The notes under the pieces were generated by a model. The model was not told the DNA's origin, did not search any database, and saw only the letters and a list, made by a program, of their open reading frames with translations. A DNA stretch of 27,704 nt, taken from IMG/VR virus record IMGVR_UViG_3300032050_000655, positions 1 through 27,704 of that record; one strand, given 5' to 3'. The translations under genes and the position numbers were made by a program. This document shows, piece after piece, positions 3,356 to 27,704 of this stretch (within the stretch, counting starts at the first letter, position 1; each line of letters opens with the position of its first letter). Source of the DNA: a virus.

Positions 3356-3550
3356 TTACTTAGCAGATTCAACTTTTTTAACTTCTTCAACTTTTACAGA
3401 GTCAACAGAAACTTTAGAAGAATCGCAACAAGCGCTGTCTGCACATGTGCTATCCATCAAAGTTGAGTCAACAAGAGTTGTTTCGGTTTCTTGGCTTGTA
3501 CAAGCAACCAATGCAGTAACCATCAAAAGACTTAAAACTAATTTTTTCAT
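3356..3550 (-). CDS. small Cys- and Asp/Ser-rich lipoprotein
   Basis: The 64-residue protein has a classical lipoprotein signal: MKK, a hydrophobic core, and lipobox LVAC with the cysteine at residue 17. The mature 48 residues are low complexity, with repeats of DST and DS, a cluster of three cysteines (CADSACC) and a final Val/Glu/Lys segment (VKVEEVKKVESAK). Short lipoproteins of this style are common in Bacteroidota and their phages, and no function is known to me. The upstream region has a good sigma70-like TTGTCA-17-TATAAT (3584-3612) but no clear Bacteroidota -7 box. A minus-strand TATTTAT lies at 3594-3600. Confidence 0.75.
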   Translation of the reverse strand: MKKLVLSLLMVTALVACTSQETETTLVDSTLMDSTCADSACCDSSKVSVDSVKVEEVKKVESAK

Positions 3551-5085: not shown

Positions 5086-5117
5086 ATAAAAAAGGGGGTC
5101 AATGACCCCCTTTTTTT
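5086..5117. terminator. bidirectional intrinsic terminator
   Basis: GGGGGTC-AAT-GACCCCC with an A-run before and seven Ts after. It separates the converging genes ending at 5067 (+) and 5116 (-). Confidence 0.9.
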
Positions 5118-5532
5118 ATTTGTTAATTTTTGTTTGCCATCCTTGGAGGTAGTATCCATCAATGTCCCAAGTGCAGTAGATGAAAATTTTATCACCATCA
5201 TCAAGGATGTAGAAATTAACATCCATATTATTTGACTCAACACATTTGGTTCTGTAGATAGTGTAAGGACCATTTTCAACACTTACAATATTGTAGGTGA
5301 AAGTGTTTTTAGAAGTGTAATTTTTGATAGTGATAGTCTTGTTTTCAAGAGTCATTTCACATTTAGCCATACCACTACCCAAGTTACTGTCCATATCATT
5401 GTTTACCGCATATGGGCTTTCCCAAATAGAAAGGTGTTTGTAGTTGTAGAAATTTTCAAACTTATAAACTGATTGTGCTTGAGCGGTGATAGTCAAGATG
5501 AACATTGCGATGGTGGTGATGATGTTTTTCAT
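5116..5532 (-). CDS. secreted/periplasmic protein, function unknown
   Basis: From ATG 5532 the protein has 138 residues with a clear Sec signal peptide (MKNIITTIAMFILTITAQAQ), probably cut after AQA. The mature part is Tyr/Asn/Lys-rich with alternating strand patterns such as KTITIKNYTSKNTFTYNIV. Its C-terminal DDGDKIFIYC resembles small secreted beta-proteins of Bacteroidota. An upstream in-frame start at 5568 is rejected because the host-type -7 box (5554-5561) lies between it and ATG 5532. Own promoter, signal peptide and minus orientation mark it as an accessory gene possibly acquired from a host. A role in altering the host envelope is a guess. Confidence 0.75.
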   Translation of the reverse strand: MKNIITTIAMFILTITAQAQSVYKFENFYNYKHLSIWESPYAVNNDMDSNLGSGMAKCEMTLENKTITIKNYTSKNTFTYNIVSVENGPYTIYRTKCVESNNMDVNFYILDDGDKIFIYCTWDIDGYYLQGWQTKINK

Positions 5533-5553
5533 AGTTTGTCTTCCTTTCTTAAA

Positions 5554-5584
5554 CAAAGATACAACCATTTTTTAATCTACACAA
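5554..5584 (-). promoter_or_regulatory. host-type promoter for the secreted protein gene
   Basis: On the minus strand, TTG at 5582-5584, a 20-base gap and TATCTTTG at 5554-5561. The ATG is about 22 bases beyond the -7 box, and GAAAGGAAG in that short leader is one of the few purine-rich Shine-Dalgarno-like stretches here. Confidence 0.65.
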
Positions 5585-5597: not shown

Positions 5598-7397
5598 ATG
5601 TACAAAATATTTTTACAAGAAGGTAAGAAAGAAGATGCCATCAAAAAGGTAAAAGAAATGTTTTCATCTCCTGAGGATGCTGAGATGATTGACAAAATTT
5701 TTGATGCTACGTCAAGTTTGGGAACCAAGTTTATTCCGTTTGTTGAGAACGAAACCAAAAGATATTTGATTGACCAAAATACAGATATTAATGATTTTAT
5801 TAATCTACTTGTAAATAGACTTAGGTCATTTATCAAAAACAATGATAAAATTACACCTGAAGTAATAGGTACAACCAAAGAGTTGTGGGATGGTATTGAA
5901 TCAAGAGCATTTCCAAAGTTAGACGTTATATTAAAATCACCAAAAGATATTAATTCGTATAATATTGATACATTGGGTTATTTGACGCAAGCACTTTCAA
6001 TGATTTCATCTAAAAGAGAAAAAGAACGTGAGGCGAAAAAAGAAGCTGAAAAAGTATTTGAAGACGGTGATGTAATAGGAATTAGAGCCATCACACATAA
6101 TGCTTCTTGTTATTATGGTTCAGGTACACGTTGGTGTACTGCGGGGCAACAGCCTGATTATTTTAACAAATACACCAAAGACGGTAAACTTTATTACTTT
6201 ATAGACAAATCTAATAGAAGACAAAAAGTGGCTTTATATATTAAAGACGGTGACCCAACTGTGTATGATGCTGCGGATACTGGACATGATGTGGATTTTC
6301 TATACCACGTTTATCCTGAGGTTGAAAATTTTGTTATTGAAAAATTATTGGGTGGTGGAAAAGTAAAAGCAGGATTTGAAAGAATTAAAGACGGAACTAT
6401 TTCAAGTTGGAATGCTGATAGGGTGGACCCATTAATCACCAGTTACAATAGAGATAATGAGGATAATGTCACTTTGAATTTAGATTTTAACGGAAGAGAT
6501 AATGATTATTTTGATTTATTTGAGTGGAACGAAGGTGACGGTGATAGAATGTACTTAGATATTTCATTATCTAGTTACGGTACAGGTGAAATTTTTGATA
6601 GTTATTATGGTGAAGAAGAATGGAAAGAGGGATATATGTATTCTTATTTTGATGACGAACAAATGAAAAGACTTCAAACGTATATGAAGATTATTAATCC
6701 AAAATTATATGAATGTACGTTGGGATTAAAGGAATATGGTAATGATGACTGTAAAATTAAAGTTTCCGAATTCCTATCAAAGACATTTGAAAATGCCGTT
6801 GATAACATAACCAGTGAATATACTTATGACATGAATGTTGATGCCGAACGAGGTATTAAAGAATATTTGGAAAGAGATTATTCAAATATGTTTGCCGAAT
6901 ATGGGTTACCAATGACGGGTACATTTTATAAGAAAACGGTTAAATTAGATGACCTTATAAAAACCTATCAAAAATATAATCCAAAGTTTAATATTGGAAT
7001 TTATGGATTATTAAGAAGAATTATTAATCTTGAAAATATTGACCCCCCAAGTATTGCTGATAGTGTATATGAGTTTAGGTCTGGGAATCATGAATATAGT
7101 AGTACCTACAATGCCATAGAAAAATTATTAGATACTATGGAAGAAACTATTAATGAAAATGAAAACATAACAGGTGATTACATTGACCATTATGATTTTA
7201 TTAAAAAATTGGGTGGTTTTGATGAGTGGTTTGTAATGCCAGGTGATGATAGATATAATCTAAAAATTTCTGATTTGGATATGGAAGATGATAGGGTGAC
7301 ATTTGCAATAAACACTGTTGGTAAAGGTGATATGAAAAAAATGAGATTACCATTTGAAAAATTCAAAGATTTTATTTATAATCTACAACTTTTTTGA
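5598..7397 (+). CDS. large protein with GTRWCT motif, function unknown
   Basis: This 599-residue protein has a helical N-terminal region (1-155). A compact block follows at about residues 160-225: GIRAITHNASCYYGSGTRWCTAG, split here as GIRAITHNAS and CYYGSGTRWCTAG, then KLYYFIDKSNRRQKVALYI. I recognise the pattern C/Y-Y-G-x-GT-x-WCT followed by a YYFID strand as a recurrent block in uncharacterised phage proteins. C171, W179 and C180 are its hallmark residues. The C-terminal 370 residues are acidic with no known motif. One TATTTAT element precedes the gene. No clear terminator precedes the peptidase promoter downstream. An enzymatic role is plausible because the conserved residues are polar and clustered, but the function is not known. 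Confidence 0.75.
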   Translation: MYKIFLQEGKKEDAIKKVKEMFSSPEDAEMIDKIFDATSSLGTKFIPFVENETKRYLIDQNTDINDFINLLVNRLRSFIKNNDKITPEVIGTTKELWDGIESRAFPKLDVILKSPKDINSYNIDTLGYLTQALSMISSKREKEREAKKEAEKVFEDGDVIGIRAITHNASCYYGSGTRWCTAGQQPDYFNKYTKDGKLYYFIDKSNRRQKVALYIKDGDPTVYDAADTGHDVDFLYHVYPEVENFVIEKLLGGGKVKAGFERIKDGTISSWNADRVDPLITSYNRDNEDNVTLNLDFNGRDNDYFDLFEWNEGDGDRMYLDISLSSYGTGEIFDSYYGEEEWKEGYMYSYFDDEQMKRLQTYMKIINPKLYECTLGLKEYGNDDCKIKVSEFLSKTFENAVDNITSEYTYDMNVDAERGIKEYLERDYSNMFAEYGLPMTGTFYKKTVKLDDLIKTYQKYNPKFNIGIYGLLRRIINLENIDPPSIADSVYEFRSGNHEYSSTYNAIEKLLDTMEETINENENITGDYIDHYDFIKKLGGFDEWFVMPGDDRYNLKISDLDMEDDRVTFAINTVGKGDMKKMRLPFEKFKDFIYNLQLF

Positions 7398-8360: not shown

Positions 8361-10355
8361 TTATTTGATGATTACCTTCTCAGATTTTACCGATAGGGAA
8401 TATTGTTTACTCTCAACCACATTTCCGTTTAGGACTTCTTCAGATATCAAATCTTCAATTTGGTCCTGAATTGCTCTTTTGATAGGACGAGCTCCATATA
8501 ATTCATCATAACCAATCTTGGCAATGTGTGAAACTAATTTGTCGTCATACTTGAAAATAAGTTTCAACTCTGACAAACGACCCATTAATTTCTTTAATTC
8601 AATGTCAACAATCTTTTTGATAGATTCTTCGTTCAAAGAATTAAACACAATCACATCATCAATACGGTTCAAGAACTCAGGAGAGAAATAATTCTTCATT
8701 TCTTTTTTCAAGATTTCTTTTTTCTGTTCTTCGTTAGAATAAGCGTTACTTGAAAAACCGATACCTGTTCCAAAGTCTTGAAGTTTTTTAACCCCAATGT
8801 TTGATGTCATAATAATCAAACAATTCTTGAAGTTAATTTTTCTACCCAAAGAATCTGTAAGGTGACCTTCATCCAACATCTGAAGAAGTGTGTGGAAGAT
8901 TTCTTTGTTTGCTTTTTCAACCTCATCAAACAAGATTACAGAGTAAGGTTTGTTCTTAACCTGTTCGGTCAACTGTCCACCTTCTTCATAACCCACGTAA
9001 CCTGGAGGGGAACCAATCAAACGAGAGATGGTATGTTTCTCTTGGTACTCACTCATATCCACACGGATAAGTGCATCTGAACTACCAAAGATTTGTTTAG
9101 CCAATTGTTTTGCCAAGTGGGTTTTACCTACACCTGTTGAACCCAAGAAGATAAACGAACCGATTGGTTTATTTGGGTCTTTAATACCCAAACGGTTTCT
9201 ACGGATAGATTTTGAAATCTTTGACACCGCATCATCCTGACCTACAACTTCGGAAATCAAAGTTTTTTCCATTCCAACCAAAGCCATCTTATCATCAACA
9301 TTTAATTTGTTGACAGGAATCTTTGTCATTGACGAAACTACATTCAAGACCAATTCTGGGTCAATCGGTTTGCGATTTTCAGATTGTTCTTTTTCAAACT
9401 TCGCCTTTTCAAGTTCCAAACGTTCAAGAAGTTTTTTCTCTTTATCACGTAGTTCAGCTGCGTGTTCAAAGTCTTGTCTTTTAACAACATCAAGTTTTTG
9501 TTGTTTAAGTTCTGAAGCTTTTTGTTTTAGAATCTCCAAGGATTCAGGGATTTTGGTATCCACTTGAGAACGGGCACCAACTTCATCCATAATATCAAAT
9601 GCTTTGTCAGGAAACTCACGGTCAGTGATGTAACGGTCAGCCAAGTTCACACACAATTCCAATACTTCTTCAGAATAACTAACCTTATGGTATTCTTCAT
9701 ACTTGTCTTTAACATTTGTAATGATTGTTAAAGTCTCAGCTTTATTTGGAGAGTCAACAACAACTTTTTGGAAACGACGCTCAAGGGCTCCGTCTTTTTC
9801 AAAGTTGGTACGATACTCATCCAAAGTGGTTGCTCCGATACATTGGATTTCACCACGAGCAAGTGCTGGTTTAAAGATGTTGGATGCGTCCATTGAACCT
9901 GAAGAATTACCAGCTCCAACAATTGTATGGATTTCATCAATGAAAATTACAATGTCAGGATTTTCTGAAAGTTCTTCAATAATAACTTTCATACGTTCTT
10001 CAAATTGACCACGATACTTTGTACCGGCAACGATGGATGTTAAATCCAATAATACAATACGTTTATCACGTAAGTTACGAGGACAATCCCCGTTAAAGAT
10101 TTTCATTGCCAAACCTTCAACAATTGCGGTTTTACCACAACCAGGTTCACCAATGATAATTGGGTTGTTTTTCTTTCTACGAGAAAGGATTTGAGCAATT
10201 CGGTTAATTTCCATCTCACGACCAATAACAGGGTCCAATTTACCCTCTTGAGCCATTTTGATTAAGTCCTTACTGAAATTGTCCAATACAGGAGTTCCTC
10301 CTGATTTCTTTTTAGGTGTTGACTTACCTTCTGTGTTATCCATTGATTCAATCAT
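8361..10355 (-). CDS. clpC: ClpC-like double AAA+ unfoldase without N-domain
   Basis: This 664-residue protein has two complete AAA+ modules. D1: Walker A GEPGCGKT (69-76), pore loop KYR (113-115), Walker B IFIDE (137-141), arginine pair 193-194. The middle domain has the ClpC-type UVR motif (about 294-311, DFEHAAELRD). D2: Walker A GSTGVGKT (405-412), pore GYVG (452-455), Walker B LFDE (475-478), and IGF (532-534) where ClpC/ClpA dock ClpP. ClpC is usually about 820-850 residues; here the protein begins at the linker before D1, so the adaptor-binding Clp-N repeats are missing. It should unfold substrates and feed ClpP, presumably the host's as none is seen here. It has its own host-type promoter and a divergent UVR-protein neighbour. 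The gene symbol refers to the family. Confidence 0.95.
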   Translation of the reverse strand: MIESMDNTEGKSTPKKKSGGTPVLDNFSKDLIKMAQEGKLDPVIGREMEINRIAQILSRRKKNNPIIIGEPGCGKTAIVEGLAMKIFNGDCPRNLRDKRIVLLDLTSIVAGTKYRGQFEERMKVIIEELSENPDIVIFIDEIHTIVGAGNSSGSMDASNIFKPALARGEIQCIGATTLDEYRTNFEKDGALERRFQKVVVDSPNKAETLTIITNVKDKYEEYHKVSYSEEVLELCVNLADRYITDREFPDKAFDIMDEVGARSQVDTKIPESLEILKQKASELKQQKLDVVKRQDFEHAAELRDKEKKLLERLELEKAKFEKEQSENRKPIDPELVLNVVSSMTKIPVNKLNVDDKMALVGMEKTLISEVVGQDDAVSKISKSIRRNRLGIKDPNKPIGSFIFLGSTGVGKTHLAKQLAKQIFGSSDALIRVDMSEYQEKHTISRLIGSPPGYVGYEEGGQLTEQVKNKPYSVILFDEVEKANKEIFHTLLQMLDEGHLTDSLGRKINFKNCLIIMTSNIGVKKLQDFGTGIGFSSNAYSNEEQKKEILKKEMKNYFSPEFLNRIDDVIVFNSLNEESIKKIVDIELKKLMGRLSELKLIFKYDDKLVSHIAKIGYDELYGARPIKRAIQDQIEDLISEEVLNGNVVESKQYSLSVKSEKVIIK

Positions 10356-10510: not shown

Positions 10511-10957
10511 ATGTTTGACTTATTTGGAAACAACAACAGAAAATCTCTAAAACAAATGATGGACGAAATCAATGAGATGTTTGGTGATTACAACCCTAAC
10601 TTTAACAGTTCTTCTATGGAACATAAAACTGAAACAGGAAGTGAAAATGGTATGGAATGGGAAAAAGAAACTTTTTCATCCCCTGATGGTAGAATTACTT
10701 ACATTGTAACTACGGGTACTATGGGTGCACCAAGAAAAAATAAAAATTCTTTGGAATCATTAAAACAACAACTTGACAAAGCAGTTGAAAAAGAAGATTT
10801 CCAATTGGCAATTTATCTTCGTGATAAAATCAAAACTTTTGAAAAAGACCAAGAAGAAATTAAAAAGATTGAAGATGAGTTGAAGGAGTGTATTAAATCA
10901 CAAAACTTTGAAAAGGCAATTGAACTACGAGACCAACTACAAAAAATGAAACCCTAA
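10511..10957 (+). CDS. protein with two UVR motifs, candidate Clp adaptor
   Basis: This 148-residue protein has a Phe/Asn-rich N-terminus (MFDLFGNNNRKSLKQMMDEI), a short strand-forming centre (ETFSSPDGRITYIVTTGT, about 53-70) and a helical C-terminal half with two UVR motifs: EDFQLAIYLRDKI (about 95-107) and QNFEKAIELRDQL (131-143). UVR motifs occur in UvrB/UvrC, in the ClpC middle domain and in McsA, a ClpC activator. No nuclease or helicase part is present, so a DNA-repair role is unlikely. Being divergent from a ClpC-like gene that has its own UVR motif, it could bind that middle domain as adaptor or activator. This is inference. McsA's zinc-binding cysteines are absent. Confidence 0.8.
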   Translation: MFDLFGNNNRKSLKQMMDEINEMFGDYNPNFNSSSMEHKTETGSENGMEWEKETFSSPDGRITYIVTTGTMGAPRKNKNSLESLKQQLDKAVEKEDFQLAIYLRDKIKTFEKDQEEIKKIEDELKECIKSQNFEKAIELRDQLQKMKP

Positions 10958-12072: not shown

Positions 12073-12972
12073 ATGGCATTAGTAACATATTTAATAGGTC
12101 CTTGTGGTGGCGGAGCATCAATACTCGTTGATTTTGATAGTGCATCATTACCTGCAGTTAATGGTAATTACTATTTAACATTCACAGGAGCATCCACACC
12201 AGGATGTTATGATATAATAGATAACGCAGAGCCAGCAACAGGTATTGATAAAGTTTTAACACAATCTGTTGATTATAATGATTGTGCAACTTGTTTATCG
12301 GCAAATCCTACACCAACGCCAACTCCAACACAGACCGTAACACCAACTCCTACAAGAACACCTGTAACACCAACTCCTACACCAACAAGTACGGTAACAC
12401 CAACAGTAACGAGAACACCAACTGTTACTCCAACATCAACTATAACACCAACAGTAACAAGAACACCAACTGTTACTCCAACTAGAACTGTTACTCCAAC
12501 TGTCACTCCAACTAGAACGTTAACACCAACACCAAGTATTACTCCAAGTATTACTCCAACGTTAACACCAACTAGAACGTTAACACCAACACCAAGTATT
12601 ACCCCAAGTATTACCCCAAGTATTACTATATCACCAAGTGCTACACCAACAGTAACACCAACATTAACAAGAACACCAACTGTTACTCCAACACCAAGTA
12701 TTACCCCAACAAGAACTGTAACCCCTACGGTTACATCAACAATAACACCAACACCAAGTATAACACCAACAATCACACCTAGTGGTTTTGCGTTAACAGG
12801 TGGAACAACAAATACACAAAGTGGAACTATAGTATATGAAGATTGTATTACATGTTCAGGTAACACATATACACAAGCATTACCACACGCAATATATTCA
12901 AACGCACAAGGAAGGTCTGTAGTTCAAGTAGACTCAGTTGCCCTTGGTGGATTTAATGGACTAAACTCTTAA
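12073..12972 (+). CDS. Thr-Pro repeat protein, probable virion surface or fibre component
   Basis: The 299-residue protein has three parts. A Cys-containing N-terminal domain (1-78, [13 protein letters not shown] through VDYNDCATC) is followed by about 160 residues of TPT, TPS and TxTP repeats, with Arg and Ile/Val substitutions. A C-terminal domain starts [14 protein letters not shown] and contains [23 protein letters not shown]. The Thr-Pro tract should form an extended stalk. Paired cysteines (CATC and CITC) flank it. The TTG start at 12049 is rejected because it precedes the TATTTAT element. A second protein of this kind starts at 26914. Display on head or tail is inferred from its position beside the structural genes. 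The repeats could vary in length by slippage. Confidence 0.75.
12301..12785 (+). repeat. Thr-Pro coding low-complexity repeat tract
   Basis: Near-continuous six- and nine-base units (ACACCA, ACTCCA, ACAGTA and similar) encode Thr-Pro. A 60-base unit starting at 12511 (ACTAGAACGTTAACACCAAC) repeats in tandem from 12571 for about 50 bases with few changes, which points to recent duplication. Confidence 0.85.
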
Positions 12973-17172: not shown

Positions 17173-18942
17173 ATGGGTTTAACCAGAGAACAATTACTAT
17201 TAGAATATTCAAGGTGTATTAAAAACACACCATACGCTCTTAAGACGTATCTTCAGACTTATGATAACACTCAGTCAAGATACGTCCCATTAGAGTTATT
17301 TCCTGACCAAGTTAATTTGGTTGAGGATTATGAAAACTTCAACGAAAACATTGCATTAAAATACCGTCAGGCAGGTGTGTCTACGGTAACTGCCGCTTGG
17401 GCAAGTAAAAGACTTGTATTTGCATCAAAACAAAGACCTGAAAAGGTTTTGATTATTGCAAACAAATTGGATACTGCCGTGGAAATGGCAAACAAAATCC
17501 GTGGATTCACAGAACAATGGCCTTCGTGGGTTGGTGTAAGTTTTTCACCTGATAAAAACGCCGCAAGACACTTTAAATTATCTAATGGTTGTGAAGTCAA
17601 AGCGGTTGCAACATCTAAAGATGCACTTCGTGGTTATACCCCAACTATGTTGATATTTGACGAAGCTGCGTATATTGAAGCAGATGGTGATTTCTGGGCG
17701 GCTTGTATGGCTTCGTTGTCTACGGGTGGTAAAGTTGTTGTTGTATCAACACCAAACGGATACGACCCAATTTACTATGAAATTTACGAACAAGCCAATC
17801 GTGGAATGAATGATTTCAAGATTACCGAAATGTTTTGGTATCGTGACCCTCGTTATACTAAAGATTTGTATTTGGTTAAGACAGATGAGATTATTCATTT
17901 TTTATTAAACCGTGAAGAATATACTTCAGATAGGATTATTGATTTTTCAGGTCGTGACCCTTACGAAAGAAACTATGATGAGTTAAAGGCTTATTTTGAA
18001 TTGGGATACAAACCATGTTCATCTTGGTTTGAGGCGATGGTAAAGAAACTTAAATACGATAAACGTAAAGTTTCTCAGGAATTAGAATGTAATTTCTTGG
18101 GTTCGGGTGATAACGTATTTGATGCTAATTTAATTAAAAATATTACAGATAATATGATTAAAGAACCCATGAATAAAATGATGGGTGGTGGACTTTGGAT
18201 TTGGAAAGAACCTGAACTTAATCATAGATATATTATGGGTGTTGACGTATCTCGTGGAGACTCAGAAGATTACTCAACATTCCAAATTTATGATTTTGAT
18301 GAAAGGGAACAAGTTGCCGAATATGTTGGAAAACTTCCTCCTGATGTATTGGCGGAAATTGCTTACAAATGGGGTAATATGTACAACTGTTTTATAGTAA
18401 TTGATATCACGGGTGGTATGGGGGTTGCAACCGCAAGAAAACTCCAAGAATTAGGATATAAAGATTTATATGTTGATGGTGTTGATTTTGGTAACAGATG
18501 GAAATTTGACCCAAAGGCTGCTGATAAAATACCTGGTATTAACTTTAACAACAAAAGGGTTCAAATTATTGCCGCTCTTGAAGAAAGTTTAAGACACGGA
18601 TTAAAAGTTCATTCATCAAGATTGTTGAATGAAATGAATACGTTTGTTTATATTAATGGAAGACCTGACCACATGAAAGGACAACATGATGATTTAATCA
18701 TGTCTTTGGCTATGGCTGTATATGTGTCAGATTCATCATTTTCACAACTTACTAAGGTTACAGAACAAGCAAAAACTATGTTGGAGTCTTGGCAGGTTAC
18801 TTCTTATGACCCACCAAAAGAACAATACTTTAATCCTGCAATGCCAAATACAAATCATAAGTCAAACATTGCATATCAGAATCAACCAACACAAAAGGAT
18901 TATCAAGACTATTTATGGTTATTCGGCGGAATGAAGCGTTGA
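17173..18942 (+). CDS. terL: terminase large subunit (T4 gp17-like)
   Basis: This 589-residue packaging motor has an ATPase followed by a nuclease. Walker A is the deviant YRQAGVST (64-71), in which valine stands where T4 gp17 has lysine; R65 at the start of the loop may substitute, as in some terminases. Walker B is MLIFDEAAY (D163, E164), and the coupling motif is STPNG (192-196). The RNase H-like nuclease has D358 in GVDVSRG, D411 in VIDITGG and D506/D507 in GQHDDL. It translocates DNA into the prohead through the portal encoded next door and cuts the concatemer. Length matches the family (gp17 is 610). The start is 14 bases after the previous stop. Confidence 0.96.
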   Translation: MGLTREQLLLEYSRCIKNTPYALKTYLQTYDNTQSRYVPLELFPDQVNLVEDYENFNENIALKYRQAGVSTVTAAWASKRLVFASKQRPEKVLIIANKLDTAVEMANKIRGFTEQWPSWVGVSFSPDKNAARHFKLSNGCEVKAVATSKDALRGYTPTMLIFDEAAYIEADGDFWAACMASLSTGGKVVVVSTPNGYDPIYYEIYEQANRGMNDFKITEMFWYRDPRYTKDLYLVKTDEIIHFLLNREEYTSDRIIDFSGRDPYERNYDELKAYFELGYKPCSSWFEAMVKKLKYDKRKVSQELECNFLGSGDNVFDANLIKNITDNMIKEPMNKMMGGGLWIWKEPELNHRYIMGVDVSRGDSEDYSTFQIYDFDEREQVAEYVGKLPPDVLAEIAYKWGNMYNCFIVIDITGGMGVATARKLQELGYKDLYVDGVDFGNRWKFDPKAADKIPGINFNNKRVQIIAALEESLRHGLKVHSSRLLNEMNTFVYINGRPDHMKGQHDDLIMSLAMAVYVSDSSFSQLTKVTEQAKTMLESWQVTSYDPPKEQYFNPAMPNTNHKSNIAYQNQPTQKDYQDYLWLFGGMKR

Positions 18943-18972: not shown

Positions 18973-20796
18973 ATGGAAGAAAAGAACCTGACGATATGGC
19001 AAAGATTGTCCCAACAACTTGGACCAAATTCCCTTTTGGGTCAAGATATTCCCACTTATAAGTTTGATAAGAAAGAATTATTAAGAACTACGGATAAAGC
19101 CGAATACGAAAAAGAAAAATTACAAGCTCGTCAAACTTATTATATTTCAAGTCAATGGGCTAAAATTGAAAATAATTTATATTCTCAAGCAATTTATTAT
19201 CAACCAACAAGATTGGCATCATACTACGATTATGAGTCAATGGAGTATACTCCTGAAATTTCTGCGGCTTTGGATACATATGCCGAAGAATCTACAACGG
19301 TTGATGAAAATGGATACATGTTACAAATATACTCTGATTCACCAAGAATTAAGGCTGTATTAGGAGATTTATTTAATAACGCATTGGATATTAATACAAA
19401 CTTACCAATGTGGACACGTAACACCGCAAAATATGGTGATAACTTTGTTTTCTTAAAGTTGGACCCTGAAAAAGGTATAGTTGGTTGTTTACAACTACCA
19501 AACATTGAAATTGAACGTATTGAAGTTGGTATGAAAGGTAGAGCAACATCTGGTATGGGTGGTGCGGTAGCTTCTAATAGTGATGCTAAAAGTTTAACAT
19601 TTACTTGGAAGAACAAAAATTTGGAATTTAACACATGGGAAATGGCTCACTTTAGATTATTGGGTGATGACAGAAAACTTCCTTATGGTACCGCAATGTT
19701 AGAAAAAGCAAGACGTATTTGGAAACAATTAATTCTTGCTGAAGATGCGATGTTGGTTTATAGAACATCAAGAGCACCTGAAAGACGTGTATTTAAAGTG
19801 TTTGTTGGTAACATGGATGATGCTGATATTCAACCATACGTACAAAGATTTGCACAACAATTTAAGAAAGACCAAATCACTGACCCACAAACAGGAAACG
19901 TAGATATGAGGTTTAACCAAATGGCTGTTGACCAAGATTTCTTTATACCTGTAAGAGACCCGGCAGCTCCAAACCCAATTGAAACTTTACCAGGGGCTAC
20001 AAACTTATCAGAAATTGCCGATATTGAATACATCCAAAAGAAACTTTTAACAGCATTAAGAATACCAAAAGCGTTCTTAGGTTTTGAAGAAGTTGTTGGT
20101 GATGGTAGAAACTTATCATTACAGGATATTCGTTTTGCTCGTACAATCAATAGAATTCAAAAATCTATGGTTGCCGAACTTAACAAAATTGCAATCATTC
20201 ACCTATTCTTATTAGGATTTGAAGATGAATTAAATTCATTCCAATTAAGTTTGACTAACCCATCTAAACAAGCGGACTTGTTAACAATAGATGTTTGGAA
20301 AGAAAAAATGTTGTTATACAAAGACGCTGTTGCACCTATTGAAGGTATTGCTCCAACATCTCAAACTTGGGCTAAGAAACATATTCTTGGATTCTCTGAT
20401 GAGGATATTAAACTTGACTTACAACAACAAAGAGTTGAGAAAGCAGTTGCTACTGAAATTGCTAATACACCTAACGTAATAACAAGAACAGGATTGTTTG
20501 ACAATGTTGACAAGTTGTATGGTAATAATGGAGCACCAACAGGAACCACAGAAACACCACCTGCAGAAGGAGGTGATATGGGTGGATTTGGTGCTGACTT
20601 AGGTGGAGAACCACCAGCAGGAGGTGAAGTACCACCGGCAGGAGGTGAAACTGCGGTTACACCCGAATCAGTTAAAAAGAATATGAACATCATTTTAGAG
20701 CGTGATAATTTGTATGGTGTTGATGAGGTTGATTTAGAACGAGGAAAACGTTCATTAGGACTTATTGAAGAACAATTAGGAAAACTATTAGATTGA
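18973..20796 (+). CDS. portal protein (T4 gp20-like)
   Basis: The 607-residue protein matches T4 gp20 in its most conserved part: SRAPERRVFKVFVGN (about 267-281), DFFIPVRD (about 317-324), then ETLPGATNLSEIADIEYIQK and GRNLSLQDIRFARTINRIQ. The dodecameric portal nucleates head assembly, is the DNA channel and docks TerL. The C-terminus has an extra Gly/Pro-rich tract (about 535-570, PPAGGE repeats) before a final helix, absent from T4. It follows TerL directly; T4 has gp18 and gp19 between the two. TATTTAT occurs at 18910-18916 inside the end of terL, 56 bases upstream. Confidence 0.95.
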   Translation: MEEKNLTIWQRLSQQLGPNSLLGQDIPTYKFDKKELLRTTDKAEYEKEKLQARQTYYISSQWAKIENNLYSQAIYYQPTRLASYYDYESMEYTPEISAALDTYAEESTTVDENGYMLQIYSDSPRIKAVLGDLFNNALDINTNLPMWTRNTAKYGDNFVFLKLDPEKGIVGCLQLPNIEIERIEVGMKGRATSGMGGAVASNSDAKSLTFTWKNKNLEFNTWEMAHFRLLGDDRKLPYGTAMLEKARRIWKQLILAEDAMLVYRTSRAPERRVFKVFVGNMDDADIQPYVQRFAQQFKKDQITDPQTGNVDMRFNQMAVDQDFFIPVRDPAAPNPIETLPGATNLSEIADIEYIQKKLLTALRIPKAFLGFEEVVGDGRNLSLQDIRFARTINRIQKSMVAELNKIAIIHLFLLGFEDELNSFQLSLTNPSKQADLLTIDVWKEKMLLYKDAVAPIEGIAPTSQTWAKKHILGFSDEDIKLDLQQQRVEKAVATEIANTPNVITRTGLFDNVDKLYGNNGAPTGTTETPPAEGGDMGGFGADLGGEPPAGGEVPPAGGETAVTPESVKKNMNIILERDNLYGVDEVDLERGKRSLGLIEEQLGKLLD

Positions 20797-20809: not shown

Positions 20810-21514
20810 ATGAAATTTGGACAATTACTTAGCAAGATAGAAGGATTAATGATTAATTCTTATGTGAATGAAACAACAAAAATAGAGTTAAAAAACTTTA
20901 AAAGTTTGGTGTTGGAGAATAAAAATGCCAGTACAATGTTTTACATCTACACTGAATTGTCCAAGAAAAAAGGTTATGATAAGACATTATCTGAAGCTTA
21001 CATCAACGAATCTTTAAGACAAGTTGAAAAAATTATTCCAAAATTAAAAACTCAAAAAATTGAATATTGGGTTAAAGATGTTGTAAGTGAAAACAACTAT
21101 AAAGATATTGATAATTTGATTTACAATACTCCTGATAAGATTATGGAGAATATTGAAAGCAGAAAAAATTTGATAAAAACTTTAAGTGAAAGTACTGAAG
21201 TTAAAACTACAATACAATTACCAATAGAAACTTTGATGAATATTGCCAATAGAGAAATAAGTTCTTATATTGAAAATTTAGATGAAGATTCTAAAAGAGA
21301 TTTATCTAAAGTATTAATGACTGAAGATGTGGAATTATCAAAAGAGTTTGAAGATTTAAAAGTAAAAACAATTCACTCTTTAAGTGGTATTAATGAATCT
21401 ATGGATGATATCACAACAAAAAAATTGCAGGAAACTATTAACCAAATTAAAGGTGAAGAGTTTTCTAAAATCAATTATGTAAGATTATACAATTTGTATA
21501 ATAACATTAATTAA
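20810..21514 (+). CDS. head-region protein after portal, function unknown
   Basis: The 234-residue protein is charged and almost wholly helical (MKFGQLLSKIEGLMINSYVN, then KFEDLKVKTIHS-like segments later). Two YVNE-T / YINE-S points resemble prohead protease sites. In T4 the small prohead core proteins gp67 and gp68 lie between portal and protease; this gene and the one at 21798 take those positions, which makes core components a reasonable guess without sequence proof. Its stop overlaps the stop of the minus-strand bS21 gene by three bases (tail to tail). Confidence 0.75.
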   Translation: MKFGQLLSKIEGLMINSYVNETTKIELKNFKSLVLENKNASTMFYIYTELSKKKGYDKTLSEAYINESLRQVEKIIPKLKTQKIEYWVKDVVSENNYKDIDNLIYNTPDKIMENIESRKNLIKTLSESTEVKTTIQLPIETLMNIANREISSYIENLDEDSKRDLSKVLMTEDVELSKEFEDLKVKTIHSLSGINESMDDITTKKLQETINQIKGEEFSKINYVRLYNLYNNIN

Positions 21515-21699
21515 TCTTTAGGTTTTTGAGATTCAACGTATTGAGCTTTTAATTTCTGAGCTCTACGTGTAACAGATGGTTTTTCATACTGAAGTCTTTC
21601 TCTCAACTTTTCATTTTGCTTGGTTTTAATTACCTTTCCTTTTAATTGTTTCAAGGCTTTTTCCAATGGAGTCTTTTCGTCTATTTTTACTTTTAACAT
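21511..21699 (-). CDS. rpsU: ribosomal protein bS21, phage-encoded
   Basis: From ATG 21699 the protein has 62 residues with the bS21 plan: a short strand (MLKVKIDEKTPLEKALKQLK), then the basic helical part LRERLQYEKPSVTRRAQKLK. R-x-R-x-x-Y-E-K-P-S-x-x-R-R is the family signature. It sits on the 30S platform beside the 3' end of 16S rRNA. In Flavobacteriia, bS21 with bS18 and bS6 hides the anti-Shine-Dalgarno sequence. A longer frame from TTG 21738 (13 extra residues) is rejected. The C-terminus (YVESQKPKD) is short. It is the only minus-strand gene in the virion block. TATTTAC lies six bases before the ATG. Confidence 0.9.
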   Translation of the reverse strand: MLKVKIDEKTPLEKALKQLKGKVIKTKQNEKLRERLQYEKPSVTRRAQKLKAQYVESQKPKD

Positions 21700-21705
21700 A
21701 TTATA

Positions 21706-21712
21706 GTAAATA
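21706..21712 (-). promoter_or_regulatory. TATTTAC, variant of the TATTTAT motif, for bS21
   Basis: On the minus strand TATTTAC, TATAAT, ATG: same six-base gap and orientation as at 10994, one base different. Confidence 0.3.
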
Positions 21713-21797
21713 ATACAAAATTGGTGAAAATTTGACAATAGAATAAAATTAGATTATTTTTTTTCAAACAATAAACAATTTATACACATGATTATTA

Positions 21798-22266: not shown

Positions 22267-22998
22267 ATGAAAATATTAGGACCTACCGACACAGGTAAAG
22301 GAATATTGATTGAAATGGATGCAGGATATGTGTCACCATCTCATGAATTTAACAAAAAGATGCTTGAAGAAAATCACAAGAATTTCTTGGATTATTCAAA
22401 ACCTTTTGAATTCTATGCCGTACTTCAAAAATACAACACACCAAACCGTAATGGTAGAGTGTACCCTGAAAGAATCTTAAAACGTGAATCTGACAATTAT
22501 AAAAAGATGATTGAAAAAGGAACATCTCTTTCAGAATTAAACCACCCTGAATCATCATTAATTGACCTTGACCGTGTGTCTCACATCATTAATGATATAT
22601 GGTGGGACGGACATATCCTTATGGGTAAGTTACGTCTTCTAACATCACCAGGATTCCATGAAAGAGGTATTGTATCTACAAAGGGTGACCAAGCTGCTAA
22701 CTTGTTGAGACAGGGTGTTACTTTGGGTATATCTTCACGTGGGGTTGGTTCTTTAAAAAAGAACGGTGAACAAAATGAAGTACAGGATGATTTTGAATTA
22801 ATCTGTTTTGATTTGGTATCTTCACCATCTACACCTGGAGCATATCTTTTTACAAATCCTGATGATAGAAGTAAATTTGAAGAAAATTTGGAAGAAGAAA
22901 AAGTTTCAAGAATGTCTCCAATAGAACAAGATAGTGGAACAAAAATGAATCGCTCTATTGACTTATTGAAAAAATTAAACCATTATTTGGACAGATAA
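22267..22998 (+). CDS. prohead protease (T4 gp21-like)
   Basis: The 243-residue protein matches the T4 prohead protease family: NGRVYP (62-67), ELNHPESS with catalytic H93, DRVSHIINDIWWDGHILMGK, and LGISSRGVGS with the catalytic serine at 156 or 157. It is a serine protease packaged in the prohead core that cuts scaffold, capsid and internal proteins after glutamate and then itself. The probable targets in this window are the capsid protein (E60-A61) and the gp22-like scaffold. The length is close to T4 gp21 (212). It lies upstream of scaffold and capsid genes as in T4. Confidence 0.93.
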   Translation: MKILGPTDTGKGILIEMDAGYVSPSHEFNKKMLEENHKNFLDYSKPFEFYAVLQKYNTPNRNGRVYPERILKRESDNYKKMIEKGTSLSELNHPESSLIDLDRVSHIINDIWWDGHILMGKLRLLTSPGFHERGIVSTKGDQAANLLRQGVTLGISSRGVGSLKKNGEQNEVQDDFELICFDLVSSPSTPGAYLFTNPDDRSKFEENLEEEKVSRMSPIEQDSGTKMNRSIDLLKKLNHYLDR

Positions 22999-23303: not shown

Positions 23304-23310
23304 TATTTAT
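23304..23310 (+). promoter_or_regulatory. TATTTAT motif upstream of the scaffold/capsid unit
   Basis: TATTTATA in an untranslated gap of 112 bases after a terminator, 23 bases before ATG 23334. This should be a strong site, as it would drive the capsid gene. TATTTAT also occurs at 23251-23257. Confidence 0.5.
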
Positions 23311-24991: not shown

Positions 24992-26833
24992 ATGGGTGCA
25001 TTATTAGAAAGCGGTCTTGTTGGTAACATTGGTTTAAAACACCTTAAGGTTATCAAAGAAGACACAATCAACAAATGGGATAAACTTGGCTTTTTGGAAG
25101 GTTTAAAAGGTCACATGAAAGAAAACGTAGCTCAGTTATACGAAAACCAAGCTTCTTTCTTAATCAATGAGGCTTCTTCAACTTCTGATAGCGGTTCTTT
25201 TGAAACAGTTGTTTTCCCAATCGTGAGAAGAGTATTCTCTAAATTATTAGCTAACGACATCGTGTCTGTACAAGCAATGAACTTACCAATCGGTAAATTG
25301 TTCTACTTCGTACCTAAAATTCAAGGTTATTCTGGTGGTACATCAACAGATGGTTTGTTTGGTGGTTCAGGAACTCACTACGCACCTATCGGTTCTCCAG
25401 GAAACTACCCTGGTAATCCTGATGCTGGATACACTTCAGGTGATGGTACATTTAACCCAATCTATAACAAAGATTTGTATGATTTATTCTACGAAGGAAA
25501 TGAGGCTGGTTTAAACCCTCCTGGTTTGTTTGACTATTCAAAAGGTCAGTGGACTGCTATTACAGCAAATACTGTAACTTACGCTTGGTCTAACGCTGGT
25601 GTTTTATTACCTGCAGCATACCCTGAAGATAACTATAGAAAAGTTATCATTGTTATGAGTGGATTCTCTAACGCAGGTGCTGGTCAATTGATTGGTCCTA
25701 ACGGTAATACTATGGATACTGAAGAATTCTTGTCAGGTTTGAACATCTTAGGTGTTTCAACTAACCAATTTACTTCAGCAAACACAACTAACCCTTATTT
25801 ATTCAGAGTTGTTACTCAAAGATATGGTAAAGGTATTGTTCAATACGGAAGTCAAGTAAATACTACTTTCCCAGTAAACAAAAATTCAGGTGGTTCTTAC
25901 TACAACGTATGTGACGCTAATGGATTTATTTTCTTGGAAATTGATTTACAAGCTCCTGTTTGTATTACTTGTGGTGATTCATCTATGGATGGTTACACAG
26001 GTTCTACTTTCTCATCTGATACAACTACTAACGATGCGTTCTTAGCTATCTACAGATTGTATAAAGAATTGGAATTTGAAGACCAAATTGGTGAAGTTTC
26101 TTTTGACCTTGAGTCAGTAACTGTTTCTGTAACAGAAAGAAAATTAAGAGCACAATGGTCTCCTGAATTAGCTCAAGACGTTGCGGCGTTCCACAACATT
26201 GATGCTGAAGCTGAATTGACAGCATTGTTATCTGAGCAAGTTGCTGCAGAAATTGATAGAGAAATCTTGAGAGATTTGAGAAAAGGTGCGGCTTGGAACT
26301 TGAGATGGGATTATAACGGTTGGAAGAGACTATCTTCTAGCGGAACAACTCCTTACACTCAAAAAGATTGGAACCAAACTTTGATTACTGCAATTAACCA
26401 ATTGTCAGCTCAAATTCACAAATCAACTTTAAGAGGTGGTGCTAACTGGATTGTTGTATCTTCTGAAGTATCTGCTATCTTTGATGACTTGGAATACTTC
26501 CACGTATCAAACGCAGCTCCTGAGCAAGACCAATACAACATGGGTATTGAAAGAATCGGTACTTTGTCAGGTAGATATCAAGTATATCGTGACCCTTACT
26601 TCCCAGCTAACCAAGTGTTAATCGGACACAAAGGAACTAGCTTGTTGGATACTGGTTACATTTACGCTCCATACGTACCTTTACAGTTGACTCCAACTAT
26701 GTATAACCCATTCAACTTCACACCTATCAAGGGTATCATGACAAGATACGCTAAGAAAATGGTTAACAACCGTTTCTATGGTAGAGTTACAGTTGACGGA
26801 GTTAGAACATTCAACTTACAAGAATTGAGATAA
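24992..26833 (+). CDS. major capsid protein (T4 gp23-like)
   Basis: The 613-residue protein has a helical delta domain (1-60) ending FLINE-ASSTSD, which aligns with the gp23 maturation site FLTE-AE; the predicted cut is E60-A61. VVFPIVRRVFSKLLANDIVS corresponds to the gp23 segment MGMVRRAIPNLIAFDICGVQ. The C-terminus (YAPYVPLQLTPTMYNPFNF, then MTRYAKKMVNNRFYG) matches the gp23 end. It is longer than gp23 (521), with inserts rich in Gly/Asn/Thr (about 118-220 and 300-340) that may be surface loops. It is preceded by an A-rich leader without Shine-Dalgarno. Codon use looks more polished than in the neighbours (for example more AAC), fitting high expression. Confidence 0.96.
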   Translation: MGALLESGLVGNIGLKHLKVIKEDTINKWDKLGFLEGLKGHMKENVAQLYENQASFLINEASSTSDSGSFETVVFPIVRRVFSKLLANDIVSVQAMNLPIGKLFYFVPKIQGYSGGTSTDGLFGGSGTHYAPIGSPGNYPGNPDAGYTSGDGTFNPIYNKDLYDLFYEGNEAGLNPPGLFDYSKGQWTAITANTVTYAWSNAGVLLPAAYPEDNYRKVIIVMSGFSNAGAGQLIGPNGNTMDTEEFLSGLNILGVSTNQFTSANTTNPYLFRVVTQRYGKGIVQYGSQVNTTFPVNKNSGGSYYNVCDANGFIFLEIDLQAPVCITCGDSSMDGYTGSTFSSDTTTNDAFLAIYRLYKELEFEDQIGEVSFDLESVTVSVTERKLRAQWSPELAQDVAAFHNIDAEAELTALLSEQVAAEIDREILRDLRKGAAWNLRWDYNGWKRLSSSGTTPYTQKDWNQTLITAINQLSAQIHKSTLRGGANWIVVSSEVSAIFDDLEYFHVSNAAPEQDQYNMGIERIGTLSGRYQVYRDPYFPANQVLIGHKGTSLLDTGYIYAPYVPLQLTPTMYNPFNFTPIKGIMTRYAKKMVNNRFYGRVTVDGVRTFNLQELR

Positions 26834-26913: not shown

Positions 26914-27704
26914 ATGGCTTGTAAAAAATCAATAATAAAAAATAACTCAATAACATCTATTGGTGTTATTAATTATACTAGATGTTCGGATAATTTAAAT
27001 ATAAATAATCACGAAGTATTAGAAAATGAAACTATTAATGTATGGTATATTGACGGTACTTATTCGACAGCATCTAAAAGTATTCAAATTCTTTCAACAA
27101 TTGATTGGCCACCACCAGTAACTCCAACTCCAAGTATTACAGCATCTGTTACTCCAAGTTATGGAGCAACTCCAACACCAAGTGTAACATCAAGTTTAAC
27201 ACCAACTCCAACTATAACATCTACAATTACACCAACACCAACTAGACCTGTGTTTACAATTACATCATTATCTAGCGGTACAACATCATTAGATGCTTGT
27301 TCAAGTCCAAGTCTTCAAACATATTATAGTAATGTTGCTATTGGTTTTTGGACTACAGGAACAACAATATACTTGAATAGTAGTTTTACAACACCAATTT
27401 TTGCAACATATCTTTCAGATTCTGGTGGATTACCAGGTAACACTGTATTTCAAACAAATGGTTCAGGTAATATAATATTAATTGAGTCGTGTCCCGCACC
27501 AACACCAACGGCGACAAGAACTCCAACACCTACACCTACACCCACAATAACACCTACTAATACGGTTACACCAACAGTGACTGAAACTCCTACTAACACA
27601 CCAACGGCCACAATAACGGATACTCCTACTCAAACACCAACTAATACACCAACACCTACGGTAACGGATACTCCTACTCAAACTCCAACTGAGACACCAA
27701 CACC
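26914..27704 (+). CDS. second Thr-Pro repeat protein, 3' end beyond window
   Basis: An open frame runs from ATG 26914 to the window end, 263 codons without a stop. A small N-terminal domain (MACKKSIIKNNSITSIGVIN, about 1-68) is followed by a first TPTPS stretch (about 69-112) and a compact domain (about 113-193) with LDACSSPSLQTYYSNVAIGF and TPIFATYLSDSGG. A second, more regular tract of TPT, TDTPTQ and TPTNTP reaches the edge. The DACS...YYS domain resembles modules I associate with Bacteroidota phage surface proteins. It lies directly after the capsid gene with its own promoter motif and terminator boundary. A decoration or fibre protein is likely, but unproven. An antisense frame here is only a shadow of the repeats. 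Confidence 0.8.
   Translation, partial: MACKKSIIKNNSITSIGVINYTRCSDNLNINNHEVLENETINVWYIDGTYSTASKSIQILSTIDWPPPVTPTPSITASVTPSYGATPTPSVTSSLTPTPTITSTITPTPTRPVFTITSLSSGTTSLDACSSPSLQTYYSNVAIGFWTTGTTIYLNSSFTTPIFATYLSDSGGLPGNTVFQTNGSGNIILIESCPAPTPTATRTPTPTPTPTITPTNTVTPTVTETPTNTPTATITDTPTQTPTNTPTPTVTDTPTQTPTETPT

Follow-up and report, generated by a model that had tools for sequence, protein, structure and literature searches.

A phage-borne bS21 gene without the Shine–Dalgarno switch of host rpsU, and its possible role in replacing the host ribosomal protein

The stretch of DNA analysed here, a 27.7-kb virus record (27,704 nucleotides, referred to below as the window) from a virus of Flavobacterium-like hosts, carries a T4-like myovirus head block, and profile and sequence comparisons confirm that a minus-strand gene within this block is a complete bS21 gene of the Bacteroidia type. 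bS21 is the ribosomal protein that phages carry most often. Judged from leader sequences, the Shine–Dalgarno (SD) sequence of rpsU acts as a switch particular to the host gene and absent from the phage gene, which suggests that phage bS21 can be made while the host version is shut off. We favour, with a probability of roughly 0.55, a reading in which a late, SD-independent phage bS21 would replace host bS21 in the 30S subunit and so keep host rpsU off.

The bS21 gene and its place in the head block

The 62-residue protein matches PF01165 in a Pfam profile search (E 3.8e-10, 39.8 bits, cut-off 27) and TIGR00030 in NCBIfam (33.2 bits, cut-off 28.95), in both cases above the curated cut-off and over most of the model, so that the bS21 signature noticed in the first-pass annotation is borne out by the HMM check. 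It also matches PHROG 21469, 'ribosomal protein S21'. A search of the PDB returned nothing but bS21 chains below E 0.7, the best being that of Flavobacterium johnsoniae (7JIL, 1.7e-6), and a profile that included three Flavobacterium sequences matched the same chain with E 2.4e-28. Substitutions among bS21 genes of the window's clade are mostly synonymous; against one relative, L017, eight synonymous changes and one non-synonymous change were counted (dN/dS ~0.03).

The genes of the block run in the order terminase, portal, a gene with no match, bS21 on the opposite strand, a second gene with no match, prohead protease, a small gene, an acidic gene in the scaffold position and capsid (Table 1), and the corresponding order in T4 is 20-67-68-21-22, the compared region ending before gene 23. 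The placement of bS21 on the minus strand inside the virion block, as first annotated, stands, and its description as a lone minus-strand gene holds within the head block, though not window-wide, where a Clp ATPase gene and open reading frames near 3356-3550 and 5116-5568 share that strand. For the protein encoded between bS21 and the protease gene, a predicted structure search of the PDB found no clear fold relative, and a viral structure library returned one uncharacterised myovirus protein. Its identification with T4 gp68 was rejected, as profile comparison gave no support.

Table 1. Features of the head block around bS21, with candidate promoter elements and other short upstream elements
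Feature	Coordinates	Strand	Remarks
Terminase large subunit	17173..18942	+	family match
Portal protein (T4 gp20-like)	18973..20796	+	family match
Flanking head-block gene, 234 aa	20810..21514	+	no family match; 4-nt overlap with bS21 stop; kept in bS21-less relatives
bS21 (rpsU-like) gene	21511..21699	-	ATG 21699, stop 21511; complete, 62 aa; Tyr54; KVIKTKQN at residues 22-29
TATTTA box	21707..21712	-	starts 13 nt ahead of bS21 ATG; candidate element of a phage late promoter
CAATTTTG	21716..21723	-	degenerate host-type -7 box (TAnnTTTG); perfect (TATCTTTG) in some sister clades
GTCAAA element (TTTGAC on +)	21731..21736	-	~37 nt before bS21 start
Flanking divergent gene, 148 aa	21798..22244	+	no family match; fold predicted with confidence (pLDDT 90.7); kept in bS21-less relatives
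Prohead protease (Peptidase_S77, gp21-like)	22267..22998	+	TATTTA box 22 nt upstream; anchor of bS21-independent survey
TATTTA box	23304..23309	+	precedes acidic scaffold-position gene (23334), itself upstream of capsid gene
Major capsid protein (gp23-like)	24992..26833	+	family match

Relatives were collected in two ways. A bS21-based search yielded 80 viral loci, and because it had used exact peptides of the query, a second sample was anchored on the prohead protease. In the latter, bS21 is a minus-strand gene that precedes the protease gene, in most cases by 562-589 nt, with wider spacings in L260 (611 nt) and L263 (979 nt), and is absent from L247, L248, L249 and L255-L259, although enough DNA is covered there. 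The relatives without bS21 retain both flanking genes, which lie about 66 nt apart in L255 as against 283 nt in the window; bS21 is thus a separable cassette within this block.

For F. johnsoniae there is evidence that bS21 hides the anti-SD sequence of 16S rRNA and that Tyr54 matters (McNutt et al. 2023, PMC9976891), a paper that also backs the role ascribed to Flavobacterium bS21 in the first-pass annotation. The residue check at the 16S 3' end proposed there finds Tyr54, the residue that stacks on the anti-SD, at a position contacting A1534. In the protease-anchored sample, which is independent of bS21, this position is aromatic in all 35 distinct phage proteins (31 Tyr, 2 His and 2 Phe), and host bS21 (54 distinct proteins) likewise has Tyr54. 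The N-terminal half is phage-specific: V23 and I24 occur in 35/35 distinct phage proteins and F23 and D24 in 54/54 distinct host proteins, and among the same phage proteins K22 is also invariant, with K25, T26 and Q28 nearly so. The KVIKTKQN signature was at first discounted, since the initial search had used that peptide, and was accepted only once the protease-anchored sample was available.

Other parts of the window also carry recognisable features. The Clp-type AAA+ ATPase gene (8361-10355, minus strand; E 4.7e-239 to PHROG 4871, 'ATP-dependent protease') is preceded, at a distance of 25 nt, by a host-type TATATTTG box, adjoins a plus-strand gene (10511-10957) whose protein has two UVR motifs, and encodes an IGF-like loop, recognised by eye, kept at the place where ClpC binds ClpP; McNutt et al. 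(PMC9976891) have considered, as a speculation, that phages of this type might remove host bS21 with a protease of their own. A member of PHROG 17056, a family of unknown function, lies at 5598-7397, with at least two copies in a 295-kb relative, G001 (L172:4625-6418 and L173:16058-17005). Threonine/proline-rich repeats (PTPT-type) are encoded at 12073-12972, similar-looking repeats occur at about 27105-27681 near the right end, and genes for four tRNAs (Pro, Thr, Met and Ile, the last with anticodon TAT) lie within 44-1644 at the left end.

Leaders and promoter-like boxes

Leader pairing energies were calculated against the Flavobacterium 16S tail, which we take to be CACCUCCUUUCU. Among the sampled hosts, 80 of 80 rpsU leaders pair strongly with it (median -19.7 kcal/mol, range -20.7 to -17.6), whereas phage bS21 leaders have a median of -0.5 kcal/mol (range -4.0 to 2.9), and an SD, including the extended SD that is a feature of autoregulation in Flavobacteriales, is found in 0/80. 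In F. johnsoniae, experimental evidence indicates that rpsU is autoregulated through its own SD by ribosomes lacking bS21 (PMC9976891), so a phage gene with an SD-free leader would be without the SD-based autoregulation of its host counterpart.

This contrast is specific to the gene. The near-absence of SD sequences from the window, as first annotated, is real: none of 30 leaders contains AGGAG or GGAGG, and none of these 30 pairs with the 16S tail below -10 kcal/mol. The proposal built on it, that lack of an SD would favour phage mRNAs, fails, as host genes are equally SD-poor (median leader energies are -1.0 for phage genes of G001 and -0.5 for host genes, and in either set SD-like motifs are as frequent as chance predicts), and SD absence alone cannot tell phage from host mRNAs. 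A limited literature search found no earlier description of the contrast between rpsU and phage leaders or of the near-leaderless mRNAs predicted below; Chen et al. 2022 (PMC9723584) do not mention promoter, leader or autoregulation.

Upstream of the bS21 gene lie three short elements (Table 1). Most distinct bS21 leaders have TATTTA at -12 or -13, a clear box being absent from some distant bS21 clades. In the window it precedes bS21, the protease gene and the scaffold-position gene and is absent before the capsid gene and the small gene after the protease, a distribution in line with the published transcription units of relatives, in which the protease gene is joined to its downstream gene and the capsid gene to its upstream gene (PMC9723584). 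The minus-strand orientation of bS21 had been taken to suggest separate timing. Against this, bS21 has the same box as the plus-strand head genes, and relatives co-express it with capsid genes; the late expression also anticipated by the first-pass annotation has been published for relatives, together with structural genes (PMC9723584). GTCAAA is present in 32/37 distinct leaders of relatives (0.03 expected in each), mostly at -36 to -38, which would place it near -35 if the bS21 mRNA began at the AUG, and no similar element was seen at other TATTTA sites.

The box is widespread in G001, where, with start positions taken from a simple longest-ORF caller, 97 of 336 ORF starts have TATTTA within 32 nt (8.7 expected). 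The box is common where a gene follows a gap or has a divergent neighbour and rare at overlapping genes (12/119), which makes a translation signal, considered as an alternative to a promoter, less likely. In the upstream gaps of this genome, few words are as strongly over-represented as TATTTAT and the host-type TATCTTTG; the former peaks at -11 to -13, and for TAnnTTTG the peak is at -12 precisely, with 20 genes against 0.32 expected per position. At -11 to -14, TATTTAT occurs in 0/281 Flavobacterium host genes. The effect of the box is weaker in a second genome, G003. The TATCTTTG boxes of G001 (loci L166-L180) look like a second promoter class, and their peak at exactly 12 nt from the ATG is where the boxes of leaderless mRNAs would lie. 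The sigma-A box of F. psychrophilum occupies -12 to -5 relative to the start of transcription, and leaderless mRNAs make up only 5.5% of the total there (PMC9723704); with this spacing, the box position in G001 indicates that many phage mRNAs may begin at or beside the AUG.

We regard TATTTA as a candidate phage late promoter, a computational reading. All six related genomes have a weak candidate for a gp55-like late sigma factor, and in the same six genomes neither a family match to a gp45-like sliding clamp nor anything in searches for phrog_12791 and phrog_223 was found. One TATTTAT gene of G001 encodes a DnaB helicase, not a structural protein, so late genes do not make up the whole of the TATTTAT class; few named matches came from PHROG scans of a selection of G001 genes, which cover the early/late split of the two promoter classes only in part.

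A proposed one-way replacement and its alternatives

The favoured replacement would begin with the entry of phage bS21 into host 30S subunits late in infection, where it would displace host bS21. Ribosomes carrying the phage protein would keep the anti-SD hidden, host rpsU, which depends on an exposed anti-SD, would stay off, and the phage bS21 mRNA, starting at or a few bases from its AUG if box placement is a guide, would be translated by those same ribosomes, making the exchange one-way in favour of the phage protein. The phage-specific N-terminal half may add some further change to initiation. This reading draws on the bS21 family assignment, Tyr54, the SD-free leader, the box shared with head genes, the weak gp55-like candidate, the autoregulation of rpsU (PMC9976891), and the late expression in relatives and the entry of another phage bS21 into E. 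coli ribosomes, both reported or cited in PMC9723584; counted against it are the computational nature of the promoter, the missing match to a gp45 clamp, the DnaB gene with TATTTAT, the distant clades that lack the box and the longest-ORF start positions. A shut-off of host transcription might by itself be enough to silence host rpsU. In a bolder version, which we consider unlikely, many late mRNAs begin right at the AUG or directly beside it, and phage bS21 both escapes SD autoregulation and tunes ribosomes to these near-leaderless mRNAs in a one-way takeover. The predicted near-leaderless mRNAs are a possible difference between phage and host messages other than SD content.

Two further readings are each possible, although we hold them only tentatively. 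Chen et al. (PMC9723584) proposed that phage bS21, once part of host ribosomes, favours the transcripts of the phage, which is also the idea of the first-pass annotation, and specialised ribosomes of this kind, in which the mRNA-facing side of the 30S subunit is altered so that late phage mRNAs are chosen over those of the host, would make sense of the consistent N-terminal difference (V23/I24 in phage, F23/D24 in host) and of boxes abutting the ATG, an arrangement uncommon in the host (in F. psychrophilum, 5.5% of mRNAs are leaderless; PMC9723704). The two sets of mRNAs cannot be told apart by SD content, however, and the phage-mRNA feature that bS21 would read is hypothetical. Alternatively, the phage copy may be a plain replacement that keeps 30S subunits complete as synthesis of host bS21 falls, with neither selectivity nor further regulatory gain. 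The conserved bS21 core with Tyr54 and the late co-expression with structural genes (PMC9723584) are what mere supply would predict, and a leader free of the SD switch would let complete ribosomes go on making the protein, but the strict phage-specific conservation of residues 22-28 suggests something more than a host copy. A role outside the ribosome or in the virion, such as RNA binding at packaging or injection with the genome, seems quite improbable: the fixed place of bS21 between two head-block genes is compatible with it, and packaging into particles was raised as a possibility by Chen et al. (PMC9723584), yet the ribosome-binding features and the residue contacting A1534 are conserved, and relatives without bS21 keep both flanks, so the head does not need it. 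Overall, the interpretation given in the first-pass annotation is partly supported, and one-way replacement is the reading we prefer.

Comparison with known systems

The putative promoters resemble T4 late promoters (PMC2988020) in having an AT-only box in the -10 region, no -35 consensus and sites on both strands, alongside the weak gp55-like protein; they differ in the box itself, which is TATTTATA and not TATAAATA, in the enrichment of TATTTAT instead, and in the lack of a match to the gp45 clamp family. Among ribosomal precedents, the bS21 of Pelagibacter phage HTVC008M, as cited in PMC9723584, has been reported in E. coli 70S ribosomes; according to that citation it is likewise a phage bS21, with a host of a different phylum. 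The host bS21 of F. johnsoniae (7JIL, PMC9976891) shares family, length, C-terminal half and Tyr54 with the window protein, which departs from it in the phage signature at residues 22-29, the SD-free leader and an identity to Flavobacterium bS21 below 40%.

The closest system is that of Chen et al. (PMC9723584), who described 47 phage genomes in which bS21 lies on the reverse strand in the company of terminase, portal, protease and capsid genes and has an aromatic residue at position 54; the hosts were predicted to be Bacteroidetes, and bS21 was expressed with structural genes. Their co-transcribed neighbour is reported as absent from two outgroups, whereas the bS21-less relatives found here keep both flanks. 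No anatomical difference was found between the window and these phages. As in the myoviruses of their clades a-e, the reverse-strand gene sits in the head block with portal on one side and prohead protease on the other, and it has the Bacteroidia-type bS21, the aromatic residue 54 and the GC content of ~33% of their phages, so that by its anatomy the window's bS21 fits the phage bS21 group already published.
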